Source: Chaetoderma sp. LZ-2023a (taxonomy: Eukaryota > Mollusca > Caudofoveata > Chaetodermatida > Chaetodermatidae). From it: a stretch of DNA of 64,000 bases. The notes under the pieces were generated by a model that saw only the letters and a list, made by a program, of their open reading frames with translations, ran no database searches and was not told the origin of the DNA. Positions 5,860 to 60,667 of this stretch are shown one piece after another. A program made the translations under genes and the position numbers. Each line of letters begins with the position of its first letter. Within the stretch, counting starts at the first letter, position 1. The stretch lies in NCBI GenBank assembly GCA_034401795.1, contig CM067374.1:135810135-135874134 (forward strand), read 5' to 3'.

Positions 5860-6994
5860 ACCTGCAACCCTCATTCAGCTGGCATCAAATGACCAGTTTT
5901 CCTGGTTTACACATGGATGTGGAAGTGCACTCTAAGGCTATGACACCGAGTATGATGCCGCAGATGTGGTGGTAAATTATGAGTAATTATTCTGTGCAAC
6001 TTCCCAGAAGGATCCTGAACTCTTCCCTCCAGTCCGTTTATATTGGGATGCGTCGGCAGTGGAAGGATGGATGCATTTACTACCAGCATCTTATTGAGGG
6101 ATGTATCCAGCATGATATACCATCAAATGGCTTTTGGGGTTGCTTTGTCAATAAGCATATGATTTACAATGTCATCAGCATGAACGATTTCAACGACTTC
6201 TTGTAGAACGCTTGCTACCACAGGATGGCCGATTGAGTCTAAAAGGGTAATTTCGATGTGCAGGCCCCCGAGTCGCAACTTCGCAAGATAATATGTTTTA
6301 CGTCACTCCTATTGGGCTCTGATTCGCAGCCTTCCACCATAGTGGCTTGTCACGTGTAATCGCTGGAGTGACGCTTATAGCACATGTTCACATACATAGC
6401 TAAGTGTTGAGAGGATACATGACATTATCTCTAGGATCCATACCAATCATTGGCAAGAAATGAACAGTTGATTTGCCTGAGAAATCTCCACAAAGGATTG
6501 CTTGCATCATTCCAGACCATCCAGGCCTTGTGGAATGAAACATCAGTGGTATTTCCCAGAGAAGAGAAATATGTCGCGTGGGATCAGTTACTTCCATTGC
6601 GATCAGTGTATTATACTTCTAATGGATCTTCCTGTGTGCTGAGATTTAAGTATCGTATATCAATTCTTCCAACCTTGATGACATCCGAAGTCATTGATGT
6701 TTTAGGAACGGCCTTTCTATCGATGATGCATGTCGTAAATGTTAAAGTGATACACATTGCATGAAATGATCCAAAGCCGTCGAGAGTTCTGATATTGTGG
6801 GCAACAGTGTCCCTTATATACTGACTACATTGTCCTGGTCTGGGCGTAGGTAACTCTGTCCATTGTGCAACAGCGGCGTTTCTTTCGAATTTATGGCCCT
6901 CATCATACGAACGAACATCCAACACCATGTTTATGAAGTGTATATACAATAAATCATGAGGCGAGATACTGGAGCATTTCAATCGGGAAGCCAA
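5860..6994 (-). pseudogene. PIN/CXC family gene remnant, copy 1 (middle part)
   Basis: Reads on the minus strand from about 6994 down. The first segment (6994-6611) has KFERNAAV, DTVAHNIRTLDGFGSFHAM and SDVIKVGRIDIRYLN, which match FERSASL, DNVDHNICTIDGHNTFHGM and EDIKQVGKICIRNFE of the 26.7-28.4 kb gene. The next (6597-6400) has GWSGMMQAI, SGKSTVHFLPMIGMDP, matching SRSGMMQTV and GKSSVIFLPMIDLEP. Further on, near 6290-6130, comes LRLGGLHIEITLLDSIG, a middle motif that I remember from full-length relatives in other invertebrates (LRLGGFHTEMSFLG type) and that is absent from the 25-kb copy. The N-terminal third and the PIN domain are missing and the frame breaks several times, so it is dead. 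Confidence 0.75.
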
Positions 6995-9443: not shown

Positions 9444-10820
9444 TCACAGATTGCACACGCACTGTGCACCGCATGAGCACAACTGTGTACAAGGTAAGTT
9501 GGATTTATAGCATTTGCATCTGCCAGTGCAATTACTTTTGCAAGCACATTTCACGAGTTCCCGGCATGCCTTAGATGCGTCTGCAAGCAAACTCCATTGC
9601 GGTGACCAAGTGTCTCCATCTCTGACGCGCTCTTTTAATGGCATTAAAGATGAGTAGCTGGGTCAATGACGACACTTCCCCCTTGATAGTTTGGGAATTC
9701 TCATTTTGATTATGAATGTTGGTACCGCCAAGTATCATCTGAACTAAAGTAACAAGTGATTGAGGTAAGTTGTCATACTGGTCAGCATCAAGTGAACCCT
9801 TGCAATCATACTTAATCTGAAAAATCTCTTTGCGGACTATTTGAGCTGCCCTCATCAACGCAATTGCGTCACTATCAGAATCATTTTTGGTGGCTAGTAA
9901 TAGAGCATCGCCTATATCTTTCTTGAATGTGAGAATCACCTCATAGTTACTCTTGTTTGACTCCACATTTGGCATTTTCGACAAGATCTTTTCCTTCAAC
10001 CTGGTATAGTTAATCCTACTTGGCATAGCATCACCAAGTTGTTCAAGACGGCGAGTGTATAATCGTGTTAAATTAGAAAGCTGAACTATTCTGCCAATAG
10101 GATGCTCAGAGGCTTGACGATCTTCCATGTATGGTATTAGCTCTACAAGAGCAACAGAGTCAGGTTTCATATCGTCAGCAATATCAGATTCACTTCTCGA
10201 AAGAGATCTATGTCGTGTGTATAGTTTTGTCAAACAAGTCTTGTGGTAAATAGCATCCAATGCTGTCATGTCTCCAGATGGCATTTTAGCAAGAAGTTTA
10301 GTACCATTTTGCGTATGTTTTGGTCAAATTTTGCTGTTGCGGCTCTATGAATGTCATGCTCTATCGGTTGGTCACAGAAAAAGCACAGTGGTTGAGTGGG
10401 GTCATTTATACTTGGCATAGTGAAATTAGACCTCATTCTAGATTTGACTGGTGACCTGAGATCCTCGCGGGATTCTAATTTCGCATTTCTTTTCACGGCG
10501 CGATCAACCCGAGTCCGGCTACAAAGATGCCAACAAGATTTGTGCCACCTAGCACAGTTTTCTATGAGCCTCTCCACAATTCCAGATCCGTCATTCAACC
10601 TACATAGATCCAGGTATGGTGGAAGGGCATGGAGTTGCTGTAGCCTATCAAGGTTATCAGCTAATGACCTATAACTCGTAATCACATTGTCACGATTTGT
10701 GTTACTACATGGCTCTATGAGATGCTCCGTTGTGGACTGCTGGCAAATAACACACAGGGACCAGTTCGTGTGTGCTAAATCCACTGTGGGATCAGATGTC
10801 AATTTCACTTTCTTTGACAT
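9444..10820 (-). pseudogene. PIN/CXC family gene, copy 2, internally deleted
   Basis: The start at 10820 gives an N-terminal zinc-binding region (CVICQQ, then H and C residues, then CFFCDQPIEHD), the same plan as CVICNQ and CLLCGYPAK of the 28.4-kb copy. Near 10266-10310 the frame shifts; it resumes with KMPSGDMTALDAIYHKTCLTKLYTR, matching the AVYHQSC motif, and continues to SLTQLLIFNAIKRARQR near 9640. A further shift leads straight to the C-terminal segment (WSPQWSLLADASKACRELVK) and a Cys-rich tail of the CXC type (CACKSNCTGRCKCYK, CTQLCSC) ending at 9444. The whole central region, including the PIN-like nuclease expected in a full copy, is missing. At least two frameshifts plus the deletion make it non-functional as it stands. 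Confidence 0.75.
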
Positions 10821-17847: not shown

Positions 17848-18875
17848 TATATATATATATAATTATTCCACAAGCAATCACGTATTCGATTGCATAACAT
17901 TCATTAAGCAATTACATATCATTTTCTATCTTACTCGTGTAATGAACTCGCACGCTAGTGGCGCACGTCACGAGTAACTTATCCCGGTGGACCTGGTATC
18001 TAAATTAAAGAACACCTGGCACATCGTGCTATTTCTTGCATGGCCATGCAGGTACCTTCTATAAGACCATCATAACTAATTAGACAGGTACAACCATGTC
18101 AATTTTTGGCTCAATGTCCAGAAATGAAAATCCAAGATGGTCGCCATTCAATTTATCCGAAAAGCATAATTTCAGTCAGAGCAGCATACAAGACTGATCG
18201 AGCCACTAGGTAATTTTCAACACATTGTTCTAGTTATCACAAGCTGGTTGTGACAACGAAAACATATTAATCCAAGATGACCGCCATGCAATTTGTAAAA
18301 AAAATCCCTATCCTGAAACCTATAACAGTAGACTATAACACAGGCCTGGTAGTCATGAAGATTTCCCCCATTCGATTTACAGAAAGTCAACAATTTCGGT
18401 TATATTTCGTAATCCAGTCTGATGATATACTAAAATACATGTATCTATATATTTAAAACTGAACTGTAATGCTGGATATATACACCGCCCAATTCTAGTC
18501 ATTAGCCAATCAATGTTAGTCTGGTGGTTTATGGCCTTACACCGACTGAAAATTCGCGTTAGTCGGCCGATGAGCGCCGATTAAAAAAATGAATCGGGAG
18601 TCGACAAGGTCAGAGATGATCTGGTGGGTTATGGCCTACCCGATCTAACTCAAGTGTCCTGTCTTGATATATATCGTGGCCTAGACTAGAGTCTGGCCAA
18701 TTAAATCATCGACGTCCATGCAGATAATTAAGGATTTACAGGTTCTCTCACATGACAACAATCAGTATTTCAAAATGGCGCACATATCTGAATTACACCT
18801 ACTTTATTTGACTACCTTGACTATTTTGCATGACGCAGACATGTTTTCGCTCGCGTCAAGTAGCTTTCGTGTACA
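17848..18875. other. No gene seen between pogo and the RNase H/PHD element
   Basis: The remainder of the TA tract, then unassigned sequence. AATCCAAGATGGTCGCCATT (about 18130) and ATCCAAGATGACCGCCATG (about 18271) are two copies of a short repeat. Confidence 0.5.
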
Positions 18876-18896
18876 GTGAAAATCTGAGAACGGTCA
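18876..18896 (+). repeat. Left terminal inverted repeat
   Basis: GTGAAAATCTGAGAAC then GGTCA. It pairs with 24193-24213. Confidence 0.8.
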
Positions 18897-19053
18897 GTTT
18901 CATGTCAATTGTCAAAGTATGCTTATTTCTTCAGTTAAAATATAGTATTAACACCTAAATTGTTGAAATACATCTATTTAATCATAGGAAACCAATTTTA
19001 AAATAAATATAATTAACTTATCAGTTTTAAATAAGTGTTCATTTAAGCAAAAT

Positions 19054-19685
19054 GTCACTTAAGTTACTGTCCCTAAAGAACTGCTACAAGGTTAGGTCCA
19101 ATATTTCAGAGTTTGGTCAAATTTATACATAGCAGCCTGTTAGTATTTTAATATGACATGTTTCTTTAGTATGTACACATGTGTTTTTTGCTAATAAATT
19201 AATAAGTGATATTAGTTCGACCATCACTTTGTCGTGTCCCGAGGTTTGGAGTCACTTAAGTTACCGCTGAGTTGTCTGCCCCATAGCGTGAGGGTATGAG
19301 TGACTTCCCTTTACCACGTGACTGGCGTAACCTTCAATGCCTTACTAATTGAGAAAGAACAGCATTAGTTTTGAAGAAGCATATATCCACATCTTTTTGT
19401 GGAGCGTTTGTAGACATCAGGCAACGTATCTTTAATACAACTCACTTAAGTTACTAATCCTTTTCGTGGCGTTTTTATTTTTTGCGATTGAATTGCATTG
19501 CTTTTTAAATAGCTCATATATTACTTTATATCACACACGGAATTTGTTGGATCTCGTCTATAGTTTGTTTCAGAATATGCAATGTATTACATTTTGTCAC
19601 ATATGTTACGGTCACCTATGTTACTATTTTGTCACATAAGTTACCGTCACCTATGTTACTATGAGTAAATGGTAACGTAAGTGAC
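19054..19685. repeat. Subterminal 14-bp palindromes, left array
   Basis: GTCACTTAAGTTAC at 19054 and 19251; CTCACTTAAGTTAC at 19441; then a tight cluster at 19596, 19611, 19631 and 19646 (GTCACMTAWGTTAC) and an inverted copy GTAACGTAAGTGAC at 19672. In the cluster, spacing is 15, 20 and 15 bp. The remaining sequence from 18897 to 20257 shows no gene. Confidence 0.85.
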
Positions 19686-20257
19686 ACAACGCCTCTGTTT
19701 CACGCGCAAATTTAGTACTGACCAATCACACTCGAACAGGAACGAGCAACCAAATAAAGAGGTCGCCTGGTTAAAGGTCAACGGTCAATGTCAAAGCTGT
19801 CGTAGTCGTGACAAAGGCTTTCTGTATGTACCGGTTTAATGGATGTCATGCATCATAAGTAATTAGTAATACTTGCATTCTTGCAACCCAATATATGCAC
19901 TAATACGACTGGTATACTCAAAGGTACACCATTATGCATATACCAATTTATATAGTTTCCTATTCATAAAATAGATTAGTAAAGGCTATTTGACCCACGA
20001 CACAAAATCTACCCGTCTATAAATACAGCGTTTCACTGGTCCTGATGGCAGTTTATCCTAAATATATTTTATTTGATATTTTGGAATTAATATTAATTCC
20101 AAGTTAGTTGCAAAATATCCAATAAATGTATTTAGTACAATAAATAGTATCTTTCATGTACCAAAAGATTAAAGATAGACAAGTATTCTCTAATGCTGTA
20201 AAGCAGGTGCCCTCTGATTCTAAAATATCGCATGTCATTCCTGTTACAGGATTCGTG

Positions 20258-22816
20258 ATGCCCCTAACGGCAGCTGAGAAGCAGAGGAGATATCGCGAAA
20301 AGTTAAATACTGATCCAAAAAGGAGGGAGAAATATCTTAGAAAGATGCGCATGCGGTATGAAGAGCGAAAGCAATGTGGTAAAGAACGCTTAGTTAGTAG
20401 TCTATCAGACAGAGATAAGAGAAATCAAAGGAAGGAATGGCAACGTTTTCGCAAAGCCAAAAAAGACATGTCTATGTCATCATATCAAAGTCCGCCAGAA
20501 ACACCAGATAATGGAAGCATATCTCGTGATCCCGAGCAAAGTGCGTCTGGACTTTCAAATGCACGTGCTTCCTCTTCAGCAAAGGCAAAAGGACAACAGA
20601 AAAGTAGGCGAAAGCATAGTAAAGTATATCGGCAACTCAAAAGTGTAGAACAGAGGTTGAGAAATACTCAGAAAGAATGTGACCGCTATAAGAAACGCTT
20701 TTATAGACTCATAATAAAACTTAATGGGGACACGCCTCTGACACCGAAATCTAAAACAAAACAACAACTTAAGGGTTGCAAGGTCAACCCACACGTTAAA
20801 AAATCACTATTGTTTGGTCATGTATTAGCCACAGAACTGCGAAACAGATATAAAAACAACTCAAACATTAAGCAAAAATGTGCTCTTTCGTGTTTGATTT
20901 CAGGCAAAGTACTAAAGAAGTACAAACTACTAAAACATGCCACGAAGACATTCGGGTTTTCTCAGAGACTATGCAGAGCAAATTTATTACGTCTTAATAA
21001 TATCACAGATGTTCCAGTAACTCAGAGACTAGGCTTCACGGCGAAACCATAAACCTAATCAAACACTTTTTCACTAGAGATGATATCAGCAGACAGACCA
21101 CTGGAAAACGTGATACAATAACGCGGTGTAAAGTAAAAAAACAAAAACGCTTTTTGTGTGGCGATATAAAACACATTCATCAACAGTACAATCGTGACTT
21201 TCCTGAAAATAGTGTGAGTTACCCAACATTTCTGCGATTGCGGCCTTTCTGGGTAGTTTCACCTACTCTGAAGGATCGTGACACGTGTATGTGTAAGCTG
21301 CATGAAAATATTAGTCTGAAGATAATGAAGCTCAAACAGCTAAACATTCTTCCCAGGGGAACTCACATAGATAGCCTACTCAGCAGTTATTGCTGTGATT
21401 TTAGCAGTGATAAGTGCATGTTAGGCGATTGGGACCAATGCAGAAATATGTGCATAGCCAGTCAGGAATTCAATCCCACTACGAAAATCGAATGGCTAGA
21501 ATGGCAGACTCAAACTAACACAGTAGATAAGGAGTCAGAAACTATTCAATTTAGAAAAACTGTGAAATGCAAACGAGCTGGAACAATTAAAGAACTTTTC
21601 GATTTGTTCAACAGTGACATGAAAGCAAAGATATGTCCCCATATCTACAGAATGCGTCATCAATATCAACAAAGTCGCCAGTGTAAAGCAGAATTGACAA
21701 ATCGAGATGCAATTATTCACATAGACTTTGCAGAAAACTATGTATGCAGGTATGCAACGGAAATTCAATCTGTTCACTTCGGTGCTAGTCATAGACAGGC
21801 AACATTGCATACAGGCATGCTTTATACAAAAGATGCTTCACTTCCCTTTTGTACCATATCTGACTCCATGCTACACAACGCTTCCGCTGTTTGGTCCTAC
21901 ATTTCACCCGTTCTAATGATGATAAGGAATGACTTTCCAGATGTAGACACACTGCACATATCCAGCGACGGCCCAACGACACAGTATAAGAATAAGGACA
22001 ATCTGTATTTACTATCAACTGAGCCACAAGATCGGTTTCAGGCAAGCAACATGGAACTTCTCAGAAGCATCGCATGGCAAGGGCGCGCCCGATGGTGTTG
22101 GGGCAGTATTAAAGCGAACTGCAGACAACGCGGTTGCACAGGGCAAGGATATTCCTGATGCGACAACCATGTATAATGAACTTTCAAATATTACATCTGT
22201 TAAACTTTTCTTCATCGCAGAGAGTGAAATTAATACTAAGTGTATTCCTGCAAAACTTGCACCAATCCGTGGAACAATGAAAATGCATCAAGTTATAACA
22301 AAAGAAGAACGTGTAATTTGCTATAGAGGTTTATCTTGTTTTTGTTCCAGAAATGGCTGTTCATGTTTCAACGCTAAGCATTACACATTTCCTTCTGAGC
22401 AACTTTCTGCTGTAATACCAACAGTAGACAATTCTTCGGGCAGTGCAGAAAGCACAGTTGGAGCTGAAGCACTCATCGCAGATCCACCCAACCTTCCCGA
22501 TAACTTAACTGTAACATCCTCAGCATCATGTAGTAACCAGCCAAAAATGTCAACTTTGTTGAAGAAACGAATTACAATTAAAAAGGCTATAATCCGCAAA
22601 CCACGTGCTAAGCAAACCATTTGTAATCCTATTAATAAGAAGAAGGTATCAAAACTCTTAAAAGATCAACTGTATAACTGTTTAGTTTGTAACGAGCCTT
22701 ACAATGACCCACCTACAGGGGATTGGATCGAGTGCCATAGCTGTAATTTATGGGCACATGAGCTGTGCACGTCGTATGGTGGAGTTAATCTATACACATG
22801 TGACAAATGCAGTTAA
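20258..22816 (+). pseudogene. RNase H-like putative transposase with PHD finger, two frameshifts
   Basis: The start chosen is MPLTAAEKQRRYREKLNTD at 20258; a longer frame from 20156 exists, but TTACAG just before 20251 may be a splice acceptor. Segment 1 (to 21052) is Lys/Arg-rich with a coiled-coil-like stretch (VYRQLKSVEQRLRNTQKE). The frame moves between 20998 and 21049; segment 2 begins HFFTRDDISRQTTGKRDTIT and carries RLRPFWVVSPTLKDRDTCMC, a Cys cluster (YCCDF, DKCMLGDWDQC), IHIDFAENY (first candidate Asp) and HISSDGPTTQYKNK (second, 81 residues on). A second shift near 22030-22050 leads to WNFSEASHGKGAPDGVGAVL, which offers the third acidic residue, and on to a C4HC3 PHD finger (CLVCNEPYNDPP, DWIECHSCNLWAHELC, YTCDKCS). 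I know relatives in many invertebrates only as uncharacterised proteins. Everything downstream of both shifts is conserved, so inactivation is recent, or the shifts are sequencing errors. Confidence 0.8.
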
Positions 22817-22971
22817 GCAATTAAGCGATGTATTCACAATTGTTAGTTTTCTGGTGAGACAAATTTGCCTTTTGCAATTTACATTTTGACCTGGTACAAT
22901 TTGATTCTTATGCAACTTGTTAATTTTTTACCCACGTGGCTAGACGAAAGGCTAAAGGCGAGCACGCCATT

Positions 22972-23110
22972 GTTGTTGTTGTTGTTCTTCTTCTTCTTCT
23001 TCTTCATTCTTCTTCTTCTTCTTGTTCTTCTTCTCCTCCTCCTCCTCCTCCTCCTCCTCCTCCTCCTCCTCCTTCTTCTTCTTCTTCTTCTACTTCTTCA
23101 TAATCTTCTT
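22972..23110 (+). repeat. (GTT)n(TTC)n(TCC)n microsatellite
   Basis: Consecutive pyrimidine-rich triplet runs just after the PHD gene. Confidence 0.9.
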
Positions 23111-23246
23111 CTTGGAAGTTAAGGTATGTGGTCAGAAATAAGTATGCCGAGTTGGGGTTAAAAGATCAAAGTTCAAGGTAACAACGACTTTATAAAAATA
23201 TACAAACTATGCGGATCTTTGTGCAAATTACATGTACACTATACGG

Positions 23247-23347
23247 GTGATGTGTTGGATATTTTGAAAATAGTTTGACTTGAAGCTGTTGCTGACTAAG
23301 GCAGCAACAATGTCCAGTCAAATTAATTTCAAAATGTTCAACAGAAT
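23247..23347. mobile_element. MITE family A hairpin nested in the RNase H/PHD element
   Basis: GTTGGATATTTTGAAAATAG with TTTGACT, then AGGCAGCAAC, then CCAGTCAAATTAATTTCAAA and ATGTTCAACAG: both arms of the family A hairpin without the outer parts. Being inside the transposon, it inserted later. Confidence 0.75.
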
Positions 23348-23638
23348 GTGGGGACACAGCAACAGTTTTCAGCAACATTGTTTTCAAAATGGACACTTTT
23401 AATGATCTAGTTCTACTGTATTGATCTTGACACAACTTGGGTGGATGCTTACCACTGGAGTTCCAGATATGTGGGGCAATTCCGGGGTCAAACGGGCAAA
23501 GGTCGAGGTCACATGCCTGATATTGCAGGGTGGTGAATCTGATTGTGATTTATATGCATAGTTAACCATCTGTGTTTGATGCTTAGTTGACCATTGGCAT
23601 CGAGAGAAGGCGTGAAATACCGTAGTATTAAAATAAAT

Positions 23639-24027
23639 GTCACTTATGTTACCACCTGTCACTTATGTTACCAATTGTCACTTACGTTACTGAAAATATT
23701 TTTTCAATATTTGTCATTTTTCTAAAAATCGAATATCTGTCACTTTTGGGATATTAAATGTTTAACTTTTCTCATTACTATAAGAGGGTGACATCTTGCC
23801 ATTTATGTCTGTATAGGAAGAAACGCAGCATAGTAACATTAGGAATATTCACTTCTTTATTTCATTTAACTAAAATCTTTTTTAATTACACATATGACTG
23901 TTTTATGAAATGTTTTACATTGTTATTTTTGGAGAATCTGTCATTCTGTGAAATAGCCATAACCATAGTTGTGTAGGCAATATGATGTATACATTGTAAT
24001 GTTGACCATGCCGGTAACTTAGGTGAC
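23639..24027. repeat. Subterminal 14-bp palindromes, right array
   Basis: GTCACTTATGTTAC at 23639 and 23658 and GTCACTTACGTTAC at 23677, at exact 19-bp spacing, plus an inverted copy GTAACTTAGGTGAC at 24014. Confidence 0.85.
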
Positions 24028-24192
24028 AACTTTAGAGCGTTATTGACAATGGAAGCTCCATAAATCATTTACAAAATAGTTGTGCTTGTGGCATTTATTA
24101 TAAATTAGTAACCAAGTATTTAATACATGTAAAAATAACAGAAATTATGCGCATGTAGATATAATATATTTTGATTTTTACTTGCTCAAAAT

Positions 24193-24213
24193 TGACTGTT
24201 CTCAGATTTTCAC
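24193..24213 (-). repeat. Right terminal inverted repeat
   Basis: TGACTGTTCTCAGATTTTCAC reads in reverse as the left TIR with one mismatch; here only the first 16 bases of the shared repeat are fully identical. Confidence 0.8.
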
Positions 24214-24293
24214 CCGTGTGCTGTCATACAACTGTGGATGCTGACGCCACGTTTCAACAAATTCCATTTCAATTTCTCTATTGTTCCAGTCTA

Positions 24294-25397: not shown

Positions 25398-26703
25398 TCA
25401 ATTATCCAAGTCATCTTCCTCAATGAGCGTTATTGAATTCGAGCAACTGAGACCCTTACAGTCTTCGCAGGCAGATGTGCAGCTGAGCCCATGTTTTCTA
25501 CAGGTGCATCTCTTTGATTCACAGCCAGTTTTGCAGCTGCATCTAAATGAATACAGTAAATCGTCAGGTGCTGCCAGCATGTCAGTCTTAACAGGCAGCA
25601 TTTGGTGGTTGAGAACTTTTCAGCCCCATTCTGTTGGATCCATATCTCCAGCATCTCCTCTCCAAACTTGAATTTGGTAGTACACGCGAAGACTGTGAAA
25701 CTTTGCGGATGCGGGTGTTGGTGGTAAATCTCGTGCTTCAACATACTTGGAACTTTTTGCAACCTTCTCCCTGAATCGCTTGTACCGCAAAGCAACTAGA
25801 CTATCCATTGAAGTGCCATTGTATAGAATAAGCATTGCCTTCTCACCTGCTTTTATCACGTCATCTTTATTCGCATTACTCATTGTAAACACTTCAGCAA
25901 TTTGAGAGAGTTCTTTGCAGCACTGGATTTTGCTAAGGGATGCAGATTTTCCAATTCCATAAAGCCTAGATGTTGAGTCACAGCCAAGGATAGCATGGAT
26001 AAATAACAGCTGTGAGCACAAACAGAACCCGAGTTTTTCCTTTGCCATTTTGATATTCCACAGTCGGGGTTTCTTTGCATTTTGCTTTGGCTCTGGTCTG
26101 AAAAGTAGCTGACAGCCATTCATATCAGTATGGTATAGAAGCAAAACCAGTAGGTCGGTATCGTCTCCAACAAGAGCAGTATTTGTTGACTTTGAAGCCA
26201 AGATAGCCGTGTGCGTAATTAAGACATCAGCATCACCGCTTGCCTTTATCGTTAAGCATCCAGCCTGTTCGAGAGATGAACTTAAGATTGATATGAACCG
26301 ATGTTTGTTCTGCTTGTTACTAAGAAAATCAGGCTTACTCAGAGTTACAACTGTTTGCGGAGTCAGTACAACAGTTGCGCCTGATCCACGAGTTCGCCTC
26401 TTATGTGTTACATCTTTTATCTCTGGGCCTTGGTCATAACCATCAAAAACTACTGTAGCCTTTCGATATTTGCTTATGCAATATTTTACATATCTTTGAC
26501 AAACATTTGCAAATGTCTCTCCACGCTGCCATGGAACACGGTGTAATAGAGCTCCTCCATCAAGCACATAGTGGACAGAATCTGGAAGGACTGCATCTTC
26601 ATTTTGAATTAATTTCCACAATGCATCAGCAAGTGCCGGCTTATTTGCTTCCCATGGAAGAGATGAATTATCAAAGAGTGCGGGCGGATGAGTGCACAAC
26701 TCA
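25398..26703 (-). pseudogene. PIN-like nuclease with CXC tail (3' half of PIN/CXC gene, copy 3)
   Basis: The frame is open from about 26703 (YELCTHPPALFDN) to 25398 except for one TGA at 25620-25622, where Trp is expected (TEWG-W). Numbering from the Met at 26699, acidic motifs of a FEN/PIN-type metal-dependent nuclease appear in order: VLDGGALLHR (about 45-54), VVFDGY (83-88), SGDADVLI (154-161), VGDDTDLLVLL (177-187) and ILGCDSTS (237-244). The tail (25601 to 25398) is Cys-rich: FRCSCKTGCESKRCTCRKHG, CTSACEDC, SCSNS, a CXC/tesmin-like zinc-binding pattern often used for DNA binding. I recall full-length relatives in molluscs and cnidarians as uncharacterised proteins in which this half follows the N-terminal half found at 26707-28401. 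Nuclease activity is inferred from motifs only. All listed Asp residues are intact, so decay is recent. Confidence 0.8.
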
Positions 26704-26706
26704 TAC

Positions 26707-28401
26707 TCAAAATAAGATGTTATTTGGCTCTAGATCTATCATCGGAAGGAAAATAACAGACGATTTACCTGGATAAACTCCTTGGTGAACAGTTTGCATC
26801 ATGCCAGACCGTGACTGTCTCCTTGAACGCAGAAACAAAGAGAAATCCGAGAGGATGTCAATGTCAGCTGTTGGGTCTGTTTGTTCCATTGCAGTTAACT
26901 CCTTAAAGGTCAATGGGAAGTTCCTGGTATGCTGAGACTCAAAGTTCCTGATACAGATCTTGCCAACTTGCTTGATATCTTCAGATGTTACATTTATCCT
27001 TGGAATAAGTTTGCACGAAAGGTTTCCTGGTGTAACAGATGCAATGATTCCCATTCCATGAAATGTATTATGCCCATCTATTGTGCAAATATTGTGATCC
27101 ACATTGTCGGCAACAAACTGAATGAACTCGCCTGATAATGGCTGTGGTAGATCTCCACCATGAAGTGATGCACTGCGCTCAAACCTCTGTATCTCCGCGT
27201 ATGAACATCCAAATCCGTGCTTGTACAAGGTGTCAACAATAAATCTAGATCCAAATTTATGGTGCATCTCACATGACAGCCCGAACTGCAAAGGTGCCAA
27301 AATAACTCTAGGACTAGTTCCTTGCATAATAGCCTGTCCAACTGATGCCTGTTTCATTTCTGTGTCTTTTCTAGTAAACAAAATCCGCAATAATTCCCGC
27401 AGTGTCTCTGGTAAATAATTCAATGCCTTTACTGGGTCGCTCATTTGCTCCCTTGATGGATAGCTTTCAGATGATGTGCATGAATCAATTAACTTAATAT
27501 CGTGTCTAAGCAGTTTGGCAGCTGTCTGGATGATTAGCATGCTCTCTGATTTGGAATCCTTTCTCTTCTGTTCCTTAGAGAAGTCAGTCAAAATAGTAGA
27601 TGCTTTAGAACGAAAGGTAACAACGTTTGGCTTACCATTCACAGTGCTAATAAATATTTCATCGCCATAATTATCTTTTATTTTATCCTGCATGTATTTT
27701 GTACTGTATGCTTTATTCTCTTTATCATCGAGATACTCTTGCATTTTATTAACGAGGTCGTGCAGGGTCAGCTGCTCATCATCATTATTTTCAAGAAATG
27801 CCATTGTCGCACTAAATGCTCTTACTCTGTCCAAGTCTTCTGGCCTTCCATGTTTTTGGGATGAGCAAGATGAGTGCAGCTGAGGGATATTTTTCATGGT
27901 TCGAAAATTTACGCTGCAGCTTTGATGGTATACTGCATTGACAACGCATAAATCCGGCGTGAAGGCAAGCCGCCCAGCTACACGTTTGCCCCATTCGTCT
28001 TTTCTCTGCTCACAGGCCTCGGCGATACTACATTGAAAGTCATGAGTACTTACTGGATAAATATCATAGCCACGTTTCTTTCCATCTTGAATTTTTGCAG
28101 GGTATCCGCATAGCAAACAATGTTCACTAAAATTGAATGTTGGACTTTCTGAACGGAGTGTTCGCATGGATGGCGGAGATTGTTCAATTTTCTCTGCGTC
28201 ACGGGCAATCCGCTTGGGATCAATGAACTCCCGTCGACATTTTACATGAACCCTCTGTCCTACTTCAGCTATGACATCGCTTTCACGGGCTCTGCTAGCA
28301 TTGTTAATACCGTCACAGCCTTTAACTCGAAGCTTAACAGTTTGTGAGCCATTTTCTAGGCTCTGGTTACAAATAACGCATGTATCTAAATCCATGTCCA
28401 T
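26707..28401 (-). CDS. N-terminal half of PIN/CXC gene, copy 3 (564 codons)
   Basis: Long intact frame from the Met at 28401. The N-terminus has paired zinc-binding motifs (CVICNQSLENG, HVKCRREF, then CLLCGYPAK, C and AVYHQSC further on), followed by a helical region and a segment shared with copy 1 (RFERSASLHGG, DNVDHNICTIDGHNTFHGMG, SGMMQTV, GKSSVIFLPMIDLEP). The frame ends immediately after MIDLEPNNILF, 8 bp before the start of the PIN half. In relatives I remember, and in copy 1, a middle region (LGGLHIEI type) follows this point, so the junction near 26700 is an internal deletion that also shifted frame by one base. The zinc motifs suggest nucleic-acid or protein binding; no catalytic role can be assigned. 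Confidence 0.75.
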   Translation of the reverse strand: MDMDLDTCVICNQSLENGSQTVKLRVKGCDGINNASRARESDVIAEVGQRVHVKCRREFIDPKRIARDAEKIEQSPPSMRTLRSESPTFNFSEHCLLCGYPAKIQDGKKRGYDIYPVSTHDFQCSIAEACEQRKDEWGKRVAGRLAFTPDLCVVNAVYHQSCSVNFRTMKNIPQLHSSCSSQKHGRPEDLDRVRAFSATMAFLENNDDEQLTLHDLVNKMQEYLDDKENKAYSTKYMQDKIKDNYGDEIFISTVNGKPNVVTFRSKASTILTDFSKEQKRKDSKSESMLIIQTAAKLLRHDIKLIDSCTSSESYPSREQMSDPVKALNYLPETLRELLRILFTRKDTEMKQASVGQAIMQGTSPRVILAPLQFGLSCEMHHKFGSRFIVDTLYKHGFGCSYAEIQRFERSASLHGGDLPQPLSGEFIQFVADNVDHNICTIDGHNTFHGMGIIASVTPGNLSCKLIPRINVTSEDIKQVGKICIRNFESQHTRNFPLTFKELTAMEQTDPTADIDILSDFSLFLRSRRQSRSGMMQTVHQGVYPGKSSVIFLPMIDLEPNNILF

Positions 28402-31135: not shown

Positions 31136-34100
31136 TCATCCTCTACATGTGTATTTACAGCTATTGTCATGGTATGCCTGGAAGTATCTGATCGGGGCGT
31201 CATATTTATAGACAATTTCTTGATATTTCCACTGTCTGTCTGGACGCTTTTCAACGGTCTTCAAAGTAGATGCATTCACATCCTCTGGCTGGCAGACTAT
31301 TTCAGGGCTCAGTTGCTCGAATGGTGAAGCTGTTCTGTCGCAATCTAGTCTTCGCTCTCCTCTTGAATACCTTCAAGCTATGGCTTTGTGTGACAGACTC
31401 CGTAAGTGGTATCTCTAGGCTGGTTTCTATGTTGAGTATTTTTAGTATTTCCACCATTCCTCTCCGCAATCTTCGCTAGGCTAATGTAGGGAGCGTCAGT
31501 ATTTCAACCTCTCCGCAATCTTCGCTAGGCTAATGTAGGGAGCGTCAGTATTTCCACCTCTCCGCAATCTTCGCTAGGCTAATGTAGGGAGCGTCAGTAT
31601 TTCCACCTCTCCGCAATCTTCGCTATGCTAATGTAGGGAGCGTCAGTATTTCCACCTCTCCGCAATCTTCGCTAGGCTAATGTAGGGAGCGTCAGTATTT
31701 CCACCTCTCCGCAATCTTCGCTAGGCTAATGTAGGGAGCGTCAGTATTTCCACCATTCCTCTCCGCAATCTTCGCTAGGCTAATGTAGGGAGCGTCAGTA
31801 TTTCCACCATTCCTCTCCGCAATCTTCGCTAGGCTAATGTAGGGAGCGTCAGTATTTCCACCATTCCTCTCCGCAATCTTCGCTAGGCTAATGTAGGGAG
31901 CGTCAGTATTTCCACCATTCCTCTCCGCAATCTTCGCTAGGCTAATGTAGGGAGCGTCAGTATTTCCACCATTCCTCTCCGCAATCTTCGCTAGGCTAAT
32001 GTAGGGAGCGTCAGTATTTCCACCATTCCTCTCCGCAATCTTCGCTAGGCTAATGTAGGGAGCGTCAGTATTTCCACCATTCCTCTCCGCAATCTTCGCT
32101 AGGCTAATGTAGGGAGCGTCAGTATTTCCACCATTCCTCTCCGCAATCTTCGCTAGGCTAATGTAGGGAGCGTCAGTATTTCCACCATTCCTCTCCGCAA
32201 TCTTCGCTAAGCTAATGTAGGGAGCGTCAGTATTTCCACCATTCCTCTCCGCAATCTTCGCTAGGCTAATGTAGGGAGCGTCAGTATTTCCACCATTCCT
32301 CTCCGCAATCTTCGCTAGGCTAATGTAGGGAGCGTCAGTATTTCCACCATTCGTCTCCGCAATCTTCGCTAGGCTAATGTAGGGAGCGTCAGTATTTCCA
32401 CCATTCCTCTCCGCAATCTTCGCTAGGCTAATGTAGGGAGCGTCAGTATTTCCACCATTCCTCTCCGCAATCTTCGCTAGGCTAATGTAGGGAGCGTCAG
32501 TATTTCCACCATTCGTCTCCGCAATCTTCGCTAGGCTAATGTAGGGAGCGTCAGTATTTCCACCATTCCTCTCCGCAATCTTCGCTAGGCTAATGTAGGG
32601 AGCGTCAGTATTTCCACCATTCCTCTCCACAATCTTCGCTAGGCTAATGTAGGGAGCGTCAGTATTTCCACCATTCCTCTCCGCAATCTTCGCTAGGCTA
32701 ATGTAGGGAGCGTCAGTATTTCCACCATTCCTCTCCGCAATCTTCGCTAGGCTAATGTAGGGAGCGTCAGTATTTCCACCATTCGTCCCCGCAATCTTCG
32801 CTAGGCTAATGTAGGGAGCGTCAGTATTTCCACCATTCCTCTCCGCAATCTTCGCTAGGCTAATGTAGGGAGCGTCAGTATTTCCACCATTCGTCTCCGC
32901 AATCTTCGCTAGGCTAATGTAGGGAGCGTCAGTATTTCCACCATTCCTCTCCGCAATCTTCGCTAGGCTAATGTAGGGAGCGTCAGTATTTCCACCATTC
33001 CTCTCCGCAATCTTCGCTAGGCTAATGTAGGGAGCGTCAGTATTTCCACCATTCGTCTCCGCAATCTTCGCTAGGCTAATGTAGGGAGCGTCAGTATTTC
33101 CACCATTCCTCTCCGCAATCTTCGCTAGGCTAATGTAGGGAGCGTCAGTATTTCCACCATTCCTCTCCGCAATGTTCGCTAGGCTAATGTAGAGAGCGTC
33201 AGTATTTCCACCATTCGTCTCCGCAATCTTCGCTAGGCTAATGTAGGGAGCGTCAGTATTTCCACCATTCGTCTCCGCAATCCTCGCTAGGCTAATGTAG
33301 GGAGCGTCAGTATTTCCACCATTCCTCTCCGCAATCTTCGCTAGGCTAATGTAGGGAGCGTCAGTATTTCCACCTCTCCGCAATCTTCGCTAGGCTAATG
33401 TAGGGAGCATCAGTATTTGCACCATTCCTCTCCGCAATCTTCGCTAGGCTAATGTAGGGAGCGTCAGTATTTCCACCATTCCTCTCCGCAATCTTCGCTA
33501 GGCTAATGTAGGGAGCGTCAGTATTTCCACCATTCCTCTCCGCAATCTTCGCTAGGCTAATGTAGGGAGCGTCAGTATTTCCACCATTCCTCTCCGCAAT
33601 CTTCGCTAGGCTAATGTAGGGAGCGTCAGTATTTCCACCATTCCTCTCCGCAATCTTCGCTAGGCTAATGTAGGGAGCGTCAGTATTTCCACCATTCCTC
33701 TCCGCAATCTTCGCTAGGCTAATGTAGGGAGCGTCAGTATTTCCACCATTCGTCTCCGCAATCTTCGCTAGGCTAATGTAGGGAGCGTCAGTATTTCCAC
33801 CATTCCTCTCCGCAATCTTCGCTAGGCTAATGTAGGGAGCGTCAGTATTTCCACCATTCCTCTCCGCAATCTTCGCTAGGCTAATGTAGGGAGCGTCAGT
33901 ATTTCCACCATTCCTCTCCGCAATCTTCGCTAGGCTAATGTAGGGAGCGTCAGTATTTCCACCTCTCCGCAATCTTCGCTAGGCTAATGTAGGGAGCGTC
34001 AGTATTTCCACCATTCGTCTCCGCAATCTTCGCTAGGCTAATGTAGGGAGCGTCAGTATTTCCACCATTCGTCTCCGCAATCTTCGCTAGGCTAATGTAG

Positions 34101-44648: not shown

Positions 44649-45037
44649 GACTTTTCCAGTTTATCCATCCATCACATGACGTCATAATCAACTACGTGAC
44701 GTGTATGACTATGACATAATCATTACGTCATGAATGACTCGATCTAGTCCGTTTTAAACGCTTAATAGTCCAACACGTTGTACGAATTGTATGTCTACTA
44801 TTTAATAAGCATTCAGTTGAATATTTTGAAAATAATTTAACTGGTGATGTTGCTGCCTATGCCCATAGGCAGCAACAGCGCCCAGTCAAATTACTTCCAA
44901 AATATTCAATAGCTAACCTGTATAGTTTTCTGGAAAGTGATAGGTTCCGAGATCGATCGATCCCAATACGAGCGATGTGTGGGTGAAGCTTAGCTAGAGA
45001 TGGACGGGGCATAGATAAAACTGGAACGGTCCATTAT
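44649..45037 (+). mobile_element. MITE family A, near full-length
   Basis: Starts ACTTTTCCAGTTTATCCATC, has ATGACGTCATAATCAACTAC, TCATTACGTCATGAATGACT, CCAACACGTTGTACGAATTG, the hairpin with stem TTGCTGCCTATG/CATAGGCAGCAA, and ends AAAACTGGAACGGTCCATTA. The family termini AATGGACC-TTCCAG are inverted repeats. Confidence 0.85.
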
Positions 45038-51224: not shown

Positions 51225-51572
51225 TAATACCGCGCTCGTGTTGATATCGATGGATCTCTGAGCTTCTTGACTATCAATTTCCAGAAAACTTTACAGGTAA
51301 GGTGTTGACTATTTTGAAACCAATTTGACTGGGTGCTGTTGCTGCTTGTGGCAGTAACATCGCCCAGTCAAATTAGTTTCAAAATATTCACCAGCATGTT
51401 TTGTAAATAGCAAAGACATACAATTCGTACAACGTGTCGGACTATTAAGCATTTAAGACGGACTAAATTGAGTCAGTCATGACGTCATGATTATGACGTC
51501 ATCCTATACGTCACGTCGTTGATTATGACATCATATGACTTAATATGATCGATAGACTAATGTCCATTAGCA
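51225..51572 (-). mobile_element. MITE family A copy
   Basis: GCTCGTGTTGATATCGATGG, CCAGAAAACTTTACAGGTAA, GCTGTTGCTGCTTGTGGCAG hairpin, CATACAATTCGTACAACGTG, CATGACGTCATGATTATGAC, ATACGTCACGTCGTTGATTA. Together with flanking sequence to 51950 it duplicates 48.2-48.95 kb. Confidence 0.85.
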
Positions 51573-56779: not shown

Positions 56780-59700
56780 CTAAATACCATTAAATGTTAA
56801 AATACCGTCTTCAGTACTACAGACGAAGTTGTCAATTGCCCAAAATTTTTTACAGTTTTCTAGTGACCCATTTTGCTGGTGGTATTTAAATTCAATAGTC
56901 ACACGAGCTCGCATTCGAGAAATACATTCTCGAAGGGCGTCCGTCTGACCATTGCCATCCATTAGACGCTGCCGCGTTACATAGGTAGCCATTTTAGCGT
57001 TTGCCATGATCCAATTGCATATACGATGTTTAATTTTACGTGCAGATTTAGACGAGCAATGGGGGCATGTAAAGCCTTTGACATAATTCTCAGGCTTAAA
57101 TTCATCAGCCAGTGTTAAAAATAGAACTGCTCGTCTAACAGCACACAAAAGTGGTTGGAGACGTGAACATGTTATAAAAAGATGTGATAAATCTTCACGA
57201 TCGCCACAGTAAACACATTTATCATTAATACAATATCCGGCCTTATATAGAAAAACACCAGTGTTGAGTGCCCCATGGAAAACCTTCCATGACAAATCTC
57301 CTTCGTATTATGTAAACGGATATTCATAAAAACAATTATCTGTAAAATCAATATTTAGAGAAAGTAGATCTCTCCATATGTTACTTTTGGTATTATGTGA
57401 AATCATTGAGTAACATTTTAATAAAGACATCGTGTACAGTTCCTTCTTGCAAAGAGATGGTATCAATACAGTAAAAACCGAGTCATCATTAATATTGCAT
57501 GATAATTCATAATTGTATACTGACCTGGGAATGTCAATAGGTCGATCTAATAGTTCAAACCATGCATTGGGTATGCTATCCCATAGAGTGTTCAAGTTTG
57601 TTTGAAGCAATCGTCGAGACCTGTTTCCAATTTTAAGGAGTAAGACTTCAAGTGCAATTTGTTTATCATTTACCAAAATATCAGCTAGAATGGTAGCATT
57701 CGCACTTATAAAATCTTCGTAGCAAAAAGTAAATCCAGTGGAGATATTCTTGATCAAAGGATTCAGAAACACTCTTATAAAAGATAGGTATATTACGAAT
57801 CATCTGTACATCCAATTGAATAGAGAAAATCTGATAATCGTAATTTAGTTTTTGCATCTGTTTGAGAAAGTAGCTGCTAAAGCTGAAACACGGATGAAAT
57901 GCGAAATAGTTCATAAATGATTGTGCATACTGAATACGGAATGTTCATATCCGAGATTCTAAATGCACGAGTCCTTGCCCACCTTTGTCTAAAGGCAGAA
58001 ACAGTAACTCTTTGGGAAGCCAGTGCTTTCCAGACCAGATGAAGTTAATTAACAGTTGTTGAATAGCATTTAAAATATTACCAGGGACATCGATAACAGC
58101 TAACCTATGCCAAAGCTTAGAAGCAGCAAGCAGATTAGTAATAGTGATCCTACCTCTAAACGATAGAGCTTTTGATAACGGGAGCCAGTTAAGAAGTTGT
58201 GTGCTAATTTCATTTTCAAGATTTTCCCAATTTTGTTTGCAAAAATCCAAAGAATTGCCAATATAAATACCGAGAATCTTTAATCCATTGCTATTCCATT
58301 TTTACCCCCAAAGGCTCGTCAATACGCCCTTTCCAGGAACCAACCCAAAAGCCTTCTGACTTCGAGTGGTTAATTTTCGCGTTGAAAGTAGACTCATATA
58401 CATGTATCAAATCTCGCAATTTAATAAAATCATCATTACATGTACACAAGGCAGTTATGTCATCAACATAAGCTGAGCAAGAAACCCTTTCACCCGAGAT
58501 ATCAGGCAGGGCCACCTCCCCCCCACCCCCTCAGTCCGTTATTTGAGCGCATCTTAACTAACAATGGTTCGATACAGATACTGTACAAAGCGCCTGATAG
58601 GGAGCAACCCTGTCTGATACCACGGCTAAAAGAAACAGGCATAGATAACAAATTATTTATTTTCAGTAAACACGAAGTGTCATTGTAAAGAAGCTGAATG
58701 CATTTAACAAAAAAAATCACCAAAGCCAAATGCGCGCAAGGTATTCAATAAATACTGGTGACTTACCCTATCAAACGCCTTCTCCTGATCTAGGGATACA
58801 ACGCCAAGAGGTAACGACATGAAATTTGAATACTCGACGATGTCTGTTATCAACCTAATGTTATTGGAGATCTTACGTCCTGGTACACAATAGCTTTGGT
58901 CTATGTGAATAATTTCTGCGAGTACTGTACGTATATGATTATACAAGGCCTTGGAAAGTATTTTCAAATCTACACATAAAAGTGATACAGGTCTCCAGTT
59001 CTTTAAATTGGTTAAATCACCTTTCTTAGGTAATAATGTCACAACCGCTCGCCTGCATGAAGTAGGTAATAACATGTCTTCAATTGATTCATTAAAAACA
59101 TCAAGAAGATCAGAACCGATAGTTTCCCAAAAGGTTTTGCAAAGTTCCGATGGTAGTCCATCAATTCCAGGAGCTGTGTTGTTATTGAGATGGTTAACAG
59201 CGTCAGTAAGCTCTGGTAAACTCAGGGCCCGATCTAACTCAATTCTGGAAAGCTCACTTAGATTAGGAAGACCTGATAAAAGCAGGTTTTCAGACAATTT
59301 GCATGAGCTTGACTTCGCATATAATTCACCATAGAAATCAGAGGCGTGGATCAGAATATCCGTATCAGAATTAACCATTTCACCGGTTGGGATCTTCAAC
59401 TGTGAAATAGTTTTATTCATCACACGTTTATTCTCAAGATTAAAAAAATATGTAGTAGGTCTATCTGATTCATTTATATGCTGGAATCGCGATCGAATCC
59501 AAGCACCCCTATTTTGCTCTTTGAGGAGAGTTGTTAATTCAGATTGCTTTTGGTTAATTACCTCTAATAATTCATTTGTTTTTGGAATTTTGACCGATAA
59601 CTGATCAATTTCAGCTTGTAAGTCTGATCGTCGCTCACGGAAAAGGACAGCTCGTTCTCGGGAATAACGCTGTGATAAAATACATATATGCTTTTAGGCC

Positions 59701-60559
59701 AAATCCCACCAATCCTGTAGACAATCAAAATCACATTTTTTTCCTTGCCAACCATGCCAGAAATCATTAATTAAAAGCACATAGTTTCTTTCACTCAACA
59801 CAGCGGTATTCATGCACCAATATGCGCTTTTCCGTTTTACACTTTTAAGCTGAAATATTGCTTTGACATAATCATGGTCAGAATTGGTGCAAGGAATTAT
59901 GGAACAACTGCTTAAAAACTGTCTAAAATTACTATGAATGTAAAAACGATCAAATCTGGATGCAGTCCCATCGGACCTGTGCCAGGTGAAAATTTCAGAT
60001 TGTGGATAGAGGCAGCGATATGCATCAGTAAAACTATTGCTTGTAATTAAAGATTTAAGCGAATCCGCAGCTGTCCGAGGGTGTGGTTCTGTTGCTGATG
60101 TTCTATCTAACTCACAATCAAGTGTAGAGTTAAAATCACCACCTAATATTATATGACATGGTTCGGACAATGTGGAAACATGAGTATCTATATCTATATC
60201 TATGCATTTCAATTTGTCATGAGACTCTGTGGGATTGTAAACATTAATCAAATAAAAATAGGTGCCATGTGACATGTAAGATTCTTCCCTGAGCAACTGT
60301 GATCGTTTCAAAGATATTTACATTTAACTTGGGTTTAAATATTATAGCAACACCAGCTGTATTTGTATTAAAATGTGAAGACAGCTTGACCCCTCCATAT
60401 AAGTCGCCATAGCGAGTCATCCGGCTGAATTGTGCGAGTATCCTGGAGAAACACAATATCGGCAAATAAATCTTTGCGAAGTTCATGAAAAATACGAAAT
60501 CTTTTAAAAGAGTCACGACAACCCCTCGTATTTAGTGTAACAATTGAGAGGGAAGTCAT
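56780..60559 (-). pseudogene. LINE ORF2: endonuclease, reverse transcriptase, Cys-rich tail
   Basis: The start taken is MTSLSIVTLNTRGCRDSF at 60559. The endonuclease follows in three frames: DIVFLQDTRTI, GGVKLSSHFNTNTAGVAI, YLINVYNPTE, CHIILGGDFN, RFDRFYIH and NSDHDYVKAIF (catalytic SDH). RT from 59423: LPKKGDLTNLKNWRPVSL, SYCVPGRKISNN, VSLDQEKAFDRV (first Asp), GIRQGCSLSGALYSICIEPL, and SCSAYVDDITAL (YVDD, about 58490). The C-terminal region includes LLNWLPLSKALSFRGRITI and WKVFHGALNTGVF, CVYCGDREDLSHLFITC (zinc motif), stop at 56780. At least eight frame changes between about 60420 and 57300, so no enzyme is made. The polypeptide order and length are those of a complete ORF2. Confidence 0.85.
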
Positions 60560-60667
60560 AATTAAAAATAATTGAATAAATCTTAGAAGAAAGATACCCA
60601 TAATTGTTTGGTGTAGAAAAGAAACTGTATTCAAGTTCGTTATTAGATTGACCATAGGCGGAAACAA

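Follow-up and report, generated by a model that had tools for sequence, protein, structure and literature searches.

What kind of mobile element lies in the 64-kb window of Chaetoderma sp. LZ-2023a analyzed here (GCA_034401795.1, contig CM067374.1, positions 135,810,135 to 135,874,134 of the forward strand), and does it belong to a described superfamily? A sequence-only reading of this stretch had reported a transposon-like structure of around 5.3 kb, spanning positions 18876-24213 of the window. We confirmed that this structure is real. It is almost certainly a broken copy of an autonomous DNA transposon of the cut-and-paste type that has been mobile recently.

Dispersed copies define the ends and the target site of the element

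We searched the 2.44-Gb genome with the left 425 bp of the element and obtained 40 matches, 14 of which, including the window's own copy, share 94-100% identity. Ten of the 13 other young copies reach the same right end. Young copies differ from each other by 1.0-1.8%, which points to a recent burst. The terminal 20-mer returned 48 genome matches, compared to none for the reversed control, and was used to pick a second subfamily (L029 and L030). Palindromes are also present in this subfamily, and its protein is 47-74% identical to that of the element, as measured in aligned pieces. Terminal inverted repeats (TIRs), palindromes and protein are common to other copies, all of which were located through the element ends and not through the gene.

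The inverted termini of the window copy (18876-18900 and 24189-24213) measure 25 bp and are 92% complementary. By comparison with the other copies, the true termini correspond to GGGTGAAAATCTGAGAAC: each end of these copies extends 2 bp further (GG...CC), and the left GG is replaced by ACA in the window copy. We accordingly placed the left TIR at 18873-18900 on the forward strand (ACA followed by GTGAAAATCTGAGAACGGTCAGTTT) and the right TIR at 24189-24215 on the reverse strand, ending in GATTTTCACCC. The TIRs originally described as 21 bp long are indeed shared with dispersed copies, but their length has to be corrected to 25 bp, plus 2 bp at each end.

The target-site duplication (TSD), which the sequence-only reading had left to be determined, exists and is 4 bp long. 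It is exact in 11 of the 13 other copies having both ends and in all 10 young copies that share the right end, and the TSDs of other copies reveal an insertion preference for T^ANNT^A. For two out of ten copies, the flanks, once joined, match related element-free sites over the junction. Reading the TSD from the window copy alone was rejected, as it offers only imperfect candidates due to its altered left end. Since the ends are 2 bp longer and the left GG is replaced by ACA, we infer that the TSD of the window copy is most likely GTGT, with no strand assigned. Its left copy lies at 18869-18872 (from the 4-bp rule of 11 other copies and a CGTGT match) and its right copy at 24216-24219 (from the flank match and the other copies).

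Subterminal palindromes are conserved among copies

The 14-bp palindrome GTNACNTANGTNAC occurs 11 times in the 64 kb, where 0.02 occurrences are expected, and a twelfth site, at 19441, carries one mismatch. All 11 occurrences fall inside the element, which bears out the subterminal arrays of a specific palindrome noticed earlier. On the forward strand, the left array is composed of palindromes 1 (GTCACTTAAGTTAC, 19054-19067), 2 (19251-19264), 3 (19441-19454, the site with one mismatch, CTCACTTAAGTTAC), 4 (19596-19609), 5 (19611-19624), 6 (19631-19644), 7 (19646-19659) and 8 (19672-19685). Palindromes 1, 2, 4, 5 and 8 are exact sites and, together with palindrome 3, were compared with other copies. 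Palindromes 6 and 7, likewise exact, lie inside the same 35-bp duplication, which none of the six aligned old copies has. The 13 other young copies all bear an extra site, GTAACTTAAGTGAC, immediately ahead of palindrome 8, and this site is missing from the window copy. The right array consists of four exact sites on the same strand (23639-23652, 23658-23671, 23677-23690 and 24014-24027).

Seven sites of the left array are conserved to the level of the TIRs in six diverged copies. The core columns of these sites are 90% identical in the six old copies, compared to a background of 65%, and none of 160 shifted site sets reaches this conservation. The arrays are probably bound by the transposase.

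The element carries a broken transposase gene

The gene occupies positions 20258-22816 and does lie between the TIRs and the palindrome arrays, as first described. In the window copy, two frameshifts, one near 21045 and one near 22046, disrupt it; an intact ORF of 857 aa is found in another copy, L012. On the forward strand, the first segment (20258-21048) encodes the basic N-terminus MPLTAAEKQRRYRE and a long helical stretch up to the first frameshift, and its start agrees with that of homologues such as P0026 and P0101. The second segment (21049-22045) holds a Cys-rich region and the RNase H core up to the second frameshift, and the third (22046-22816) the end of this core, a Cys motif and a PHD-like finger, down to the stop codon. 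When all six frames of L012 are considered, the only ORFs of at least 100 aa are the transposase ORF, without any Pfam match at 0.01, and one antisense ORF of 106 aa inside it.

Structure prediction of two homologues returned an RNase H fold, with retroviral-integrase cores ranked at the top; none of the fold match lists places the family in a single superfamily. In the predicted cores of both homologues, the counterparts of D191 and D272, the acids singled out from the sequence, occur where expected. The codon of the putative first catalytic Asp (HIDFAENY; D191 of the ORF, D473 of P0101) lies at 21724-21726 of the forward strand, and the residue is D in 203 of 204 aligned homologues. That of the second (SSDGPTTQYKN; D272, D556 of P0101) lies at 21967-21969, also forward, with conservation in 192 out of 194. 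Copy L014 keeps this second Asp, and the Ser before it is changed. Two further forward-strand codons are candidates for the third acid: the conserved Glu of WNFSE (E589 of P0101; 22064-22066; 166 out of 178) and the conserved Asp of HGKGAPD (D598 of P0101; 22091-22093; 170 out of 175), which we prefer. These counts are drawn from all 211 homologues. Motifs containing the third acid served to select most rows of alignments A1 and A3, whose lists of invariant residues are therefore circular at that position. Among the 172 rows having all three positions, eight have T, A or K in place of E589, and D598 is retained in every one of them. As far as the alignment indicates, the D of HGKGxxD is a likelier third acid than the E ahead of it.

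The PHD-like finger (22679-22810, forward strand) shows the Cys4-His-Cys3 spacing of the finger reported initially, but its score against Pfam PF00628 (E 1.6e-4, 22.1 bits) is below the cut-off of 24, and it is not a general trait of the family. The whole intact protein of L012 gave no reported PHD match at E 0.01. Of 291 homologues, 3 show the pattern and 129 lack the core motif or the 80-aa tail needed to judge it; the finger was rejected as a family hallmark. In the sequences compared, it is a variable add-on and no general family feature. The relative P0248 bears both OTU and PHD add-ons at its C-terminus.

Homologues are widespread in animals

We found homologues in molluscs, fish, insects, a spider and a sea star, and nearly all named family members in the lists are called uncharacterised or hypothetical. 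No Pfam family was found to cover the transposase core. Two homologues carry the labels Sedimenticola and Wolbachia MAG; a tree of 39 sequences led us to reject a prokaryotic origin for them, since it places them within the bivalves and within the beetles and moths, and they are thus most likely host DNA. No integrase match was found in the three ORFs of the window or in nine homologues. Residues 1-80 of P0087 match rva_4, an integrase core (E 1.1e-25), and the family's own motif lies near residue 187. We rejected the integrase-core label for the family, because this match precedes the family motif and represents a fused foreign piece. Searches of viral contigs, GTDB genome contigs and solved structures (by sequence) gave no useful result, Foldseek returned no match at E ≤ 0.001 against viral models, a search for Vertnin was unproductive, and none of five peptide motifs turned up in papers.

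A possible mechanism of transposition

The DDE-type DNA transposon architecture proposed at the outset is supported by dispersed TIR-sharing copies, a fixed 4-bp TSD, the predicted RNase H fold and conserved acids. The ends, the related empty sites, the conserved palindromes and the ORF intact elsewhere also support the transposon class. The single gene would produce a transposase of approximately 857 aa, with an N-terminus that is basic and helical, a region rich in Cys, a DDE/D core of RNase H type and, at the C-terminus, an add-on, which is here a PHD-like finger. Transposase dimers may bind the 14-bp palindrome arrays near both ends, and the bound transposase would pair the element ends. 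Cleavage would occur just outside the terminal GGGTGAAAA, and insertion through 4-bp staggered cuts, favouring T^ANNT^A, would generate the 4-bp target duplication. The PHD-like finger may steer insertion via chromatin marks. In this scheme, we infer the binding, the catalysis, the position of cleavage and the role of the finger.

Relation to described superfamilies

The transposase family was matched to no named transposon family, with Sola and Academ compared by description only. We tentatively suggest that the element is the type of a superfamily of animal cut-and-paste transposons of the DDE/D kind that has not been described so far. The proposed core is HIDFAENY / SDGPTTQYKN / WNFxEASHGKGAPD, with spacing D-82-D-42-D or D-82-D-33-E, and the other hallmarks are GGGTG termini, a 4-bp TSD in T^ANNT^A and conserved subterminal arrays of the 14-bp palindrome. 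The palindrome would be read by a transposase dimer, and C-terminal chromatin-reader or OTU modules would be exchangeable.

The element may instead be a divergent member of a Repbase superfamily, above all a Sola2-like Sola, and we regard this as a possible assignment, though less likely than not. Sola2 is described with AT-rich 4-bp TSDs (AWWT; ATAT, AAAT, ATTT) and an 888-aa transposase, and Sola as DDD with 4-bp TSDs and TIRs of 11-1124 bp, in the excerpted accounts of PMC3627910 and PMC10741241, respectively; some Sola2 elements have a Fanzor partner. As far as these descriptions go, the ANNT-leaning 4-bp duplications, the single transposase of similar size and the short TIRs resemble Sola, and D598, the better candidate for the third acid, would fit a DDD triad. 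No evidence counts directly against it, and the Pfam search gave no family match. We know of no Sola model in Pfam.

An Academ element, AcademX-like, is unlikely. AcademX has TSDs of 3 or 4 bp and a nuclease, and AcademH a helicase, in the excerpted description (PMC10045372). Bivalves are reported to be rich in Academ elements, and their curated ones average 5,565 bp (PMC10294476, in excerpt). TSD length and element length are alike by description. However, each of the 11 exact TSDs measures 4 bp, the ORFs of at least 100 aa in L012 are the large one and the 106-aa antisense ORF within it, and the Pfam search, which covered the large ORF, found no AcademX-type nuclease at 0.01. That a host gene was trapped inside an unrelated non-autonomous element is highly improbable: in its favour, the window gene is disrupted and host chromatin proteins also contain PHD and Tudor-like modules, but gene, TIR and palindromes are found together also in the end-selected L029 and L030, fold and acids are of transposase type, and homologues are many and scattered over animals.

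A large and mostly uncharacterised animal protein family can thus be assigned a probable transposase function, together with defined ends. With recent copies and at least one intact gene in one genome, activity is directly testable, as are the palindrome arrays, a clear candidate DNA-binding site. Should Sola and Academ be excluded by profile comparison, the catalogue would gain one superfamily.

Among other known systems, Kolobok shares a 4-bp TSD and an animal distribution. It differs in its TTAA TSD and in a C/DxxH motif between D2 and E (PMC9587614, in excerpt): TTAA is absent from the 11 exact TSDs, and C/DxxH (Kolobok / hAT / P / MuDR / Dada) lies between D556 and E589 in 1 of 166 homologues with D, D and D-or-E. 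Ginger1, whose transposase resembles the Gypsy integrase, has CCGG or CCGT as TSD in the excerpted text of PMC2836005; neither occurs among the 11 exact TSDs, and the family's own region has no integrase-core match. The likeness to Ginger1 lies in the integrase-like fold and in the OTU and PHD add-ons, also seen in P0248. The catalytic cores of retroviral integrase, IstA and Mos1 are listed among the closest known systems.

Copies, boundaries and empty sites of the element

The element between positions 18876 and 24213, taken for a DNA transposon in the sequence-only reading, holds up as one: it is well delimited and was recently mobile, with the same ends and exact 4-bp target-site duplications (TSDs) recurring in other copies. 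The window has the look of animal DNA and belongs to a genome of 2.44 Gb, in which the left 425 bp of the element match at least 40 places, a lower bound as 40 of 58 candidates were scored. Among these matches, 14 (including the window) are 94-100% identical and 26 are 68-75% identical, hereafter young and old copies. We retrieved 20 of the other 39 loci, namely all 13 young and 7 of the 26 old copies; all copies examined, including those of a second subfamily, were selected by their ends. Ten of the 13 other young copies span from the identical left to the identical right end, while L017, L019 and L021 end earlier and returned no right end at up to three mismatches.

The inverted ends of the window copy measure 25 bp (92% complementary), and comparison of the junctions extends the element by 2 bp on either side (GG left, CC right; in the young copy L011, one of the two added bases is changed at each end). 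The proposed terminal inverted repeats are present, but they are longer than the 21 bp originally assigned. An exact 4-bp TSD lies directly outside the ends in all 10 full-length young copies (AATA, ACTT, ATTT, ACCT, AGTT, TTGA, AACT, ACCT, ATAT and ATCA). Three more copies have both ends: L029 is flanked by ATAC, and no exact duplication borders L030 or the old copy L025, which brings the exact 4-bp TSDs to 11 of the 13 other copies with both ends. At the 11 exact sites, the preceding base is T and the first TSD base is A in 10 cases each, and the last TSD base is T and the following base is A in 7 each, which indicates a palindromic T|ANNT|A preference. The TSD of the window copy would be GTGT, provided that the left GG became ACA. 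The 10 young copies and the window differ pairwise by 1.0-1.8% (mean 1.26%, gaps excluded), and this points to a recent spread.

Insertion is demonstrated by related sites without the element for two young copies, L012 and L016, whose flanks were joined. For L012, with the element removed and one TSD copy kept, the junction is spanned by an alignment to window 51291-51463 (82%, 173 columns, one gap), and further members of the repeat found there match as well; the joined flanks of L016 align to window 45987-45821 (77%) and to positions 6760-6954 of the old copy L024 (74.5%). No empty-site partner of the remaining 8 of the 10 copies was found in the window and the retrieved loci. The element itself contains, at 23238-23349, a repeat with 45-bp imperfect inverted arms separated by 1 nt, with many relatives elsewhere in the window (for example, 51288-51399 and 44810-44926), and L012 and L016 sit in members of apparently that same family.

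Coding capacity and a second subfamily

The element gene in the window consists of three open pieces of one frame-broken protein, which spans 20258-22816 and begins with MPLTAAEKQRRYRE. The young copy L012 retains an intact ORF of 891 aa (857 aa counted from MPLT); it encodes both Asp motifs, WNFSEASHGKGAPD and the pattern of the C-terminal PHD-like finger. Among the 20 copies compared, L016 and L014 have ORFs of 828 and 783 aa, both starting at an internal Met, and the ORF pieces of the other young copies are shorter than in these three. No ORF of 150 aa with a core motif was detected in the seven old copies, and tblastn of the L012 protein against them returned weak C-terminal matches, in L025 only.

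In L029 and L030, selected by the terminal 20-mer alone, the second end matches, the palindrome occurs seven and eight times, respectively, and a relative of the gene is present in broken form (47-74% identity over the aligned pieces, C-terminal finger region included). Ends, palindromes and gene relative thus travel together in the copies examined. Terminal repeats and protein are shared by other copies, both young ones and these two loci.

Conservation of the palindromes

The palindrome GTNACNTANGTNAC occurs 11 times in the window, always within the element (0.02 copies expected in the whole window), confirming the arrays noticed earlier. All 13 other young copies carry palindromes at matching positions, a few being lost to deletion, truncation or base change, and all 13 have an extra one near 790 that the window copy lacks. 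For the old copies we compared L022 and L024-L028, which are 66-69% identical to the young copy L014 across the left 840 bp; L023 was excluded because it and L022 apparently stem from a single locus. In these six copies, seven of the nine left sites are alignable, with 90.2% identity over their ten specified columns (420 cells); the first 27 bp reach 88.3%, and the other columns 64.7% (3963 cells). Among 160 shifted site sets the highest value is 78.7%. The two remaining sites lie in a 35-bp duplication that the six old copies lack. A first count with all nine sites and gaps as mismatches gave 71.3% versus 63.2%, with 72.0% in the best of 136 shifted sets, and strong conservation is therefore limited to the seven shared sites. 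Conservation on a par with the termini would be expected of a putative transposase-binding site. In L031, chosen by one terminal 20-mer, neither a palindrome nor a second end was seen within 5.9 kb.

Other features of the window

A TTC/TCC microsatellite lies inside the element (22973-23111). Outside it, two pairs of adjacent ORFs on the minus strand (25620-28401 and 9571-10820), each with one ORF that starts Cys-rich (CVIC.Q), have no Pfam match at 0.001 and appear to be copies of a further, uncharacterised mobile element. The window also contains a long minus-strand tandem minisatellite that reads NGGNTDAPYISLAKIAER in one frame (31692-33972), a Tc1/mariner-type DDE_3 fragment (393-881) and LINE-like reverse transcriptase, endonuclease and zinc-knuckle pieces (58704-62114; the last two below the Pfam cut-off).

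The probable transposase family

Three homologue searches (E <= 0.001) returned 97, 127 and at least 718 matches, the third scoring only the 7983 candidates with most shared words; 97, 120 and 120 of these, respectively, were listed, and the set compared comprised 291 distinct sequences. Among the named hosts are molluscs, ray-finned fishes, beetles, moths and butterflies, a wasp, a spider and a sea star. No relative was found in the viral and GTDB contigs scanned. Two homologues whose database entries assign them to Sedimenticola and Wolbachia MAGs (P0179, P0227) nest among animal transposases in the tree and are thus probably host contamination of the MAGs. No Pfam family matched the core ORF of the window, nor did any match exceed the curated cut-off over the core of nine homologues. 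Across 45 homologues we found 43 Pfam families, each of the 25 listed matching a single member; an integrase core match in fragment P0087 lies at residues 1-80, outside the family's own region.

When the full set of 211 homologues from searches one and two is aligned without selection (P0101 numbering, remaining rows being gaps), D473 and D556, the counterparts of D191 and D272 in the window, are D in 203 of 204 and 192 of 194 rows. The candidate third acids are E589 (WNFSE), with E in 166 of 178 rows, and D598 (HGKGAPD), with D in 170 of 175. Of the 172 rows that cover all three positions, E589 is replaced by T, A or K in 8, all keeping D598, and D598 is not D in 3 (two E, one Y), all retaining E589. 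Over the 166 rows with D, D and D or E, the spacings have medians of 82, 33 and 42.

The C-terminal modules are variable across the family. By simple patterns, which left 129 of the 291 homologues not classifiable, 79 have YPG only, 3 PHD, 3 an OTU-like GNC (two also with YPG) and 77 neither. P0248 matches Pfam OTU (E 8.6e-8), with PHD below the cut-off. OTU or Ulp1 has been reported in Ginger1 transposases and PHD in one of them (PMC2836005), so such add-ons are recurrent in other transposases. Three homologues (P0145, P0163 and P0258) have a long C-terminal insert with the OTU-like GNC motif; P0145 is labelled Vertnin in UniRef, and a link between the family and Vertnin-like modules is possible.

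Placement among known superfamilies

Repbase is described as recognising 23 superfamilies, DDD/E being present in 21 (PMC10045372). The literature searched, with few subscription journals covered, yielded no description of this transposase family in the portions seen. A new superfamily seems a little less likely than not; Sola and AcademX, the two serious candidates among known ones, were judged by their published descriptions. A relationship to Sola appears somewhat more doubtful than a new superfamily. Sola is described with a 4-bp TSD and DDD (PMC10741241), and Sola2 with a TSD of AWWT or similar and an 888-aa transposase (PMC3627910), compared with 4 bp and 857 aa here. AcademX is described with a TSD of 3-4 bp and a nuclease (PMC10045372). 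The superfamily question is narrowed to one comparison, that with the Sola and AcademX transposases.
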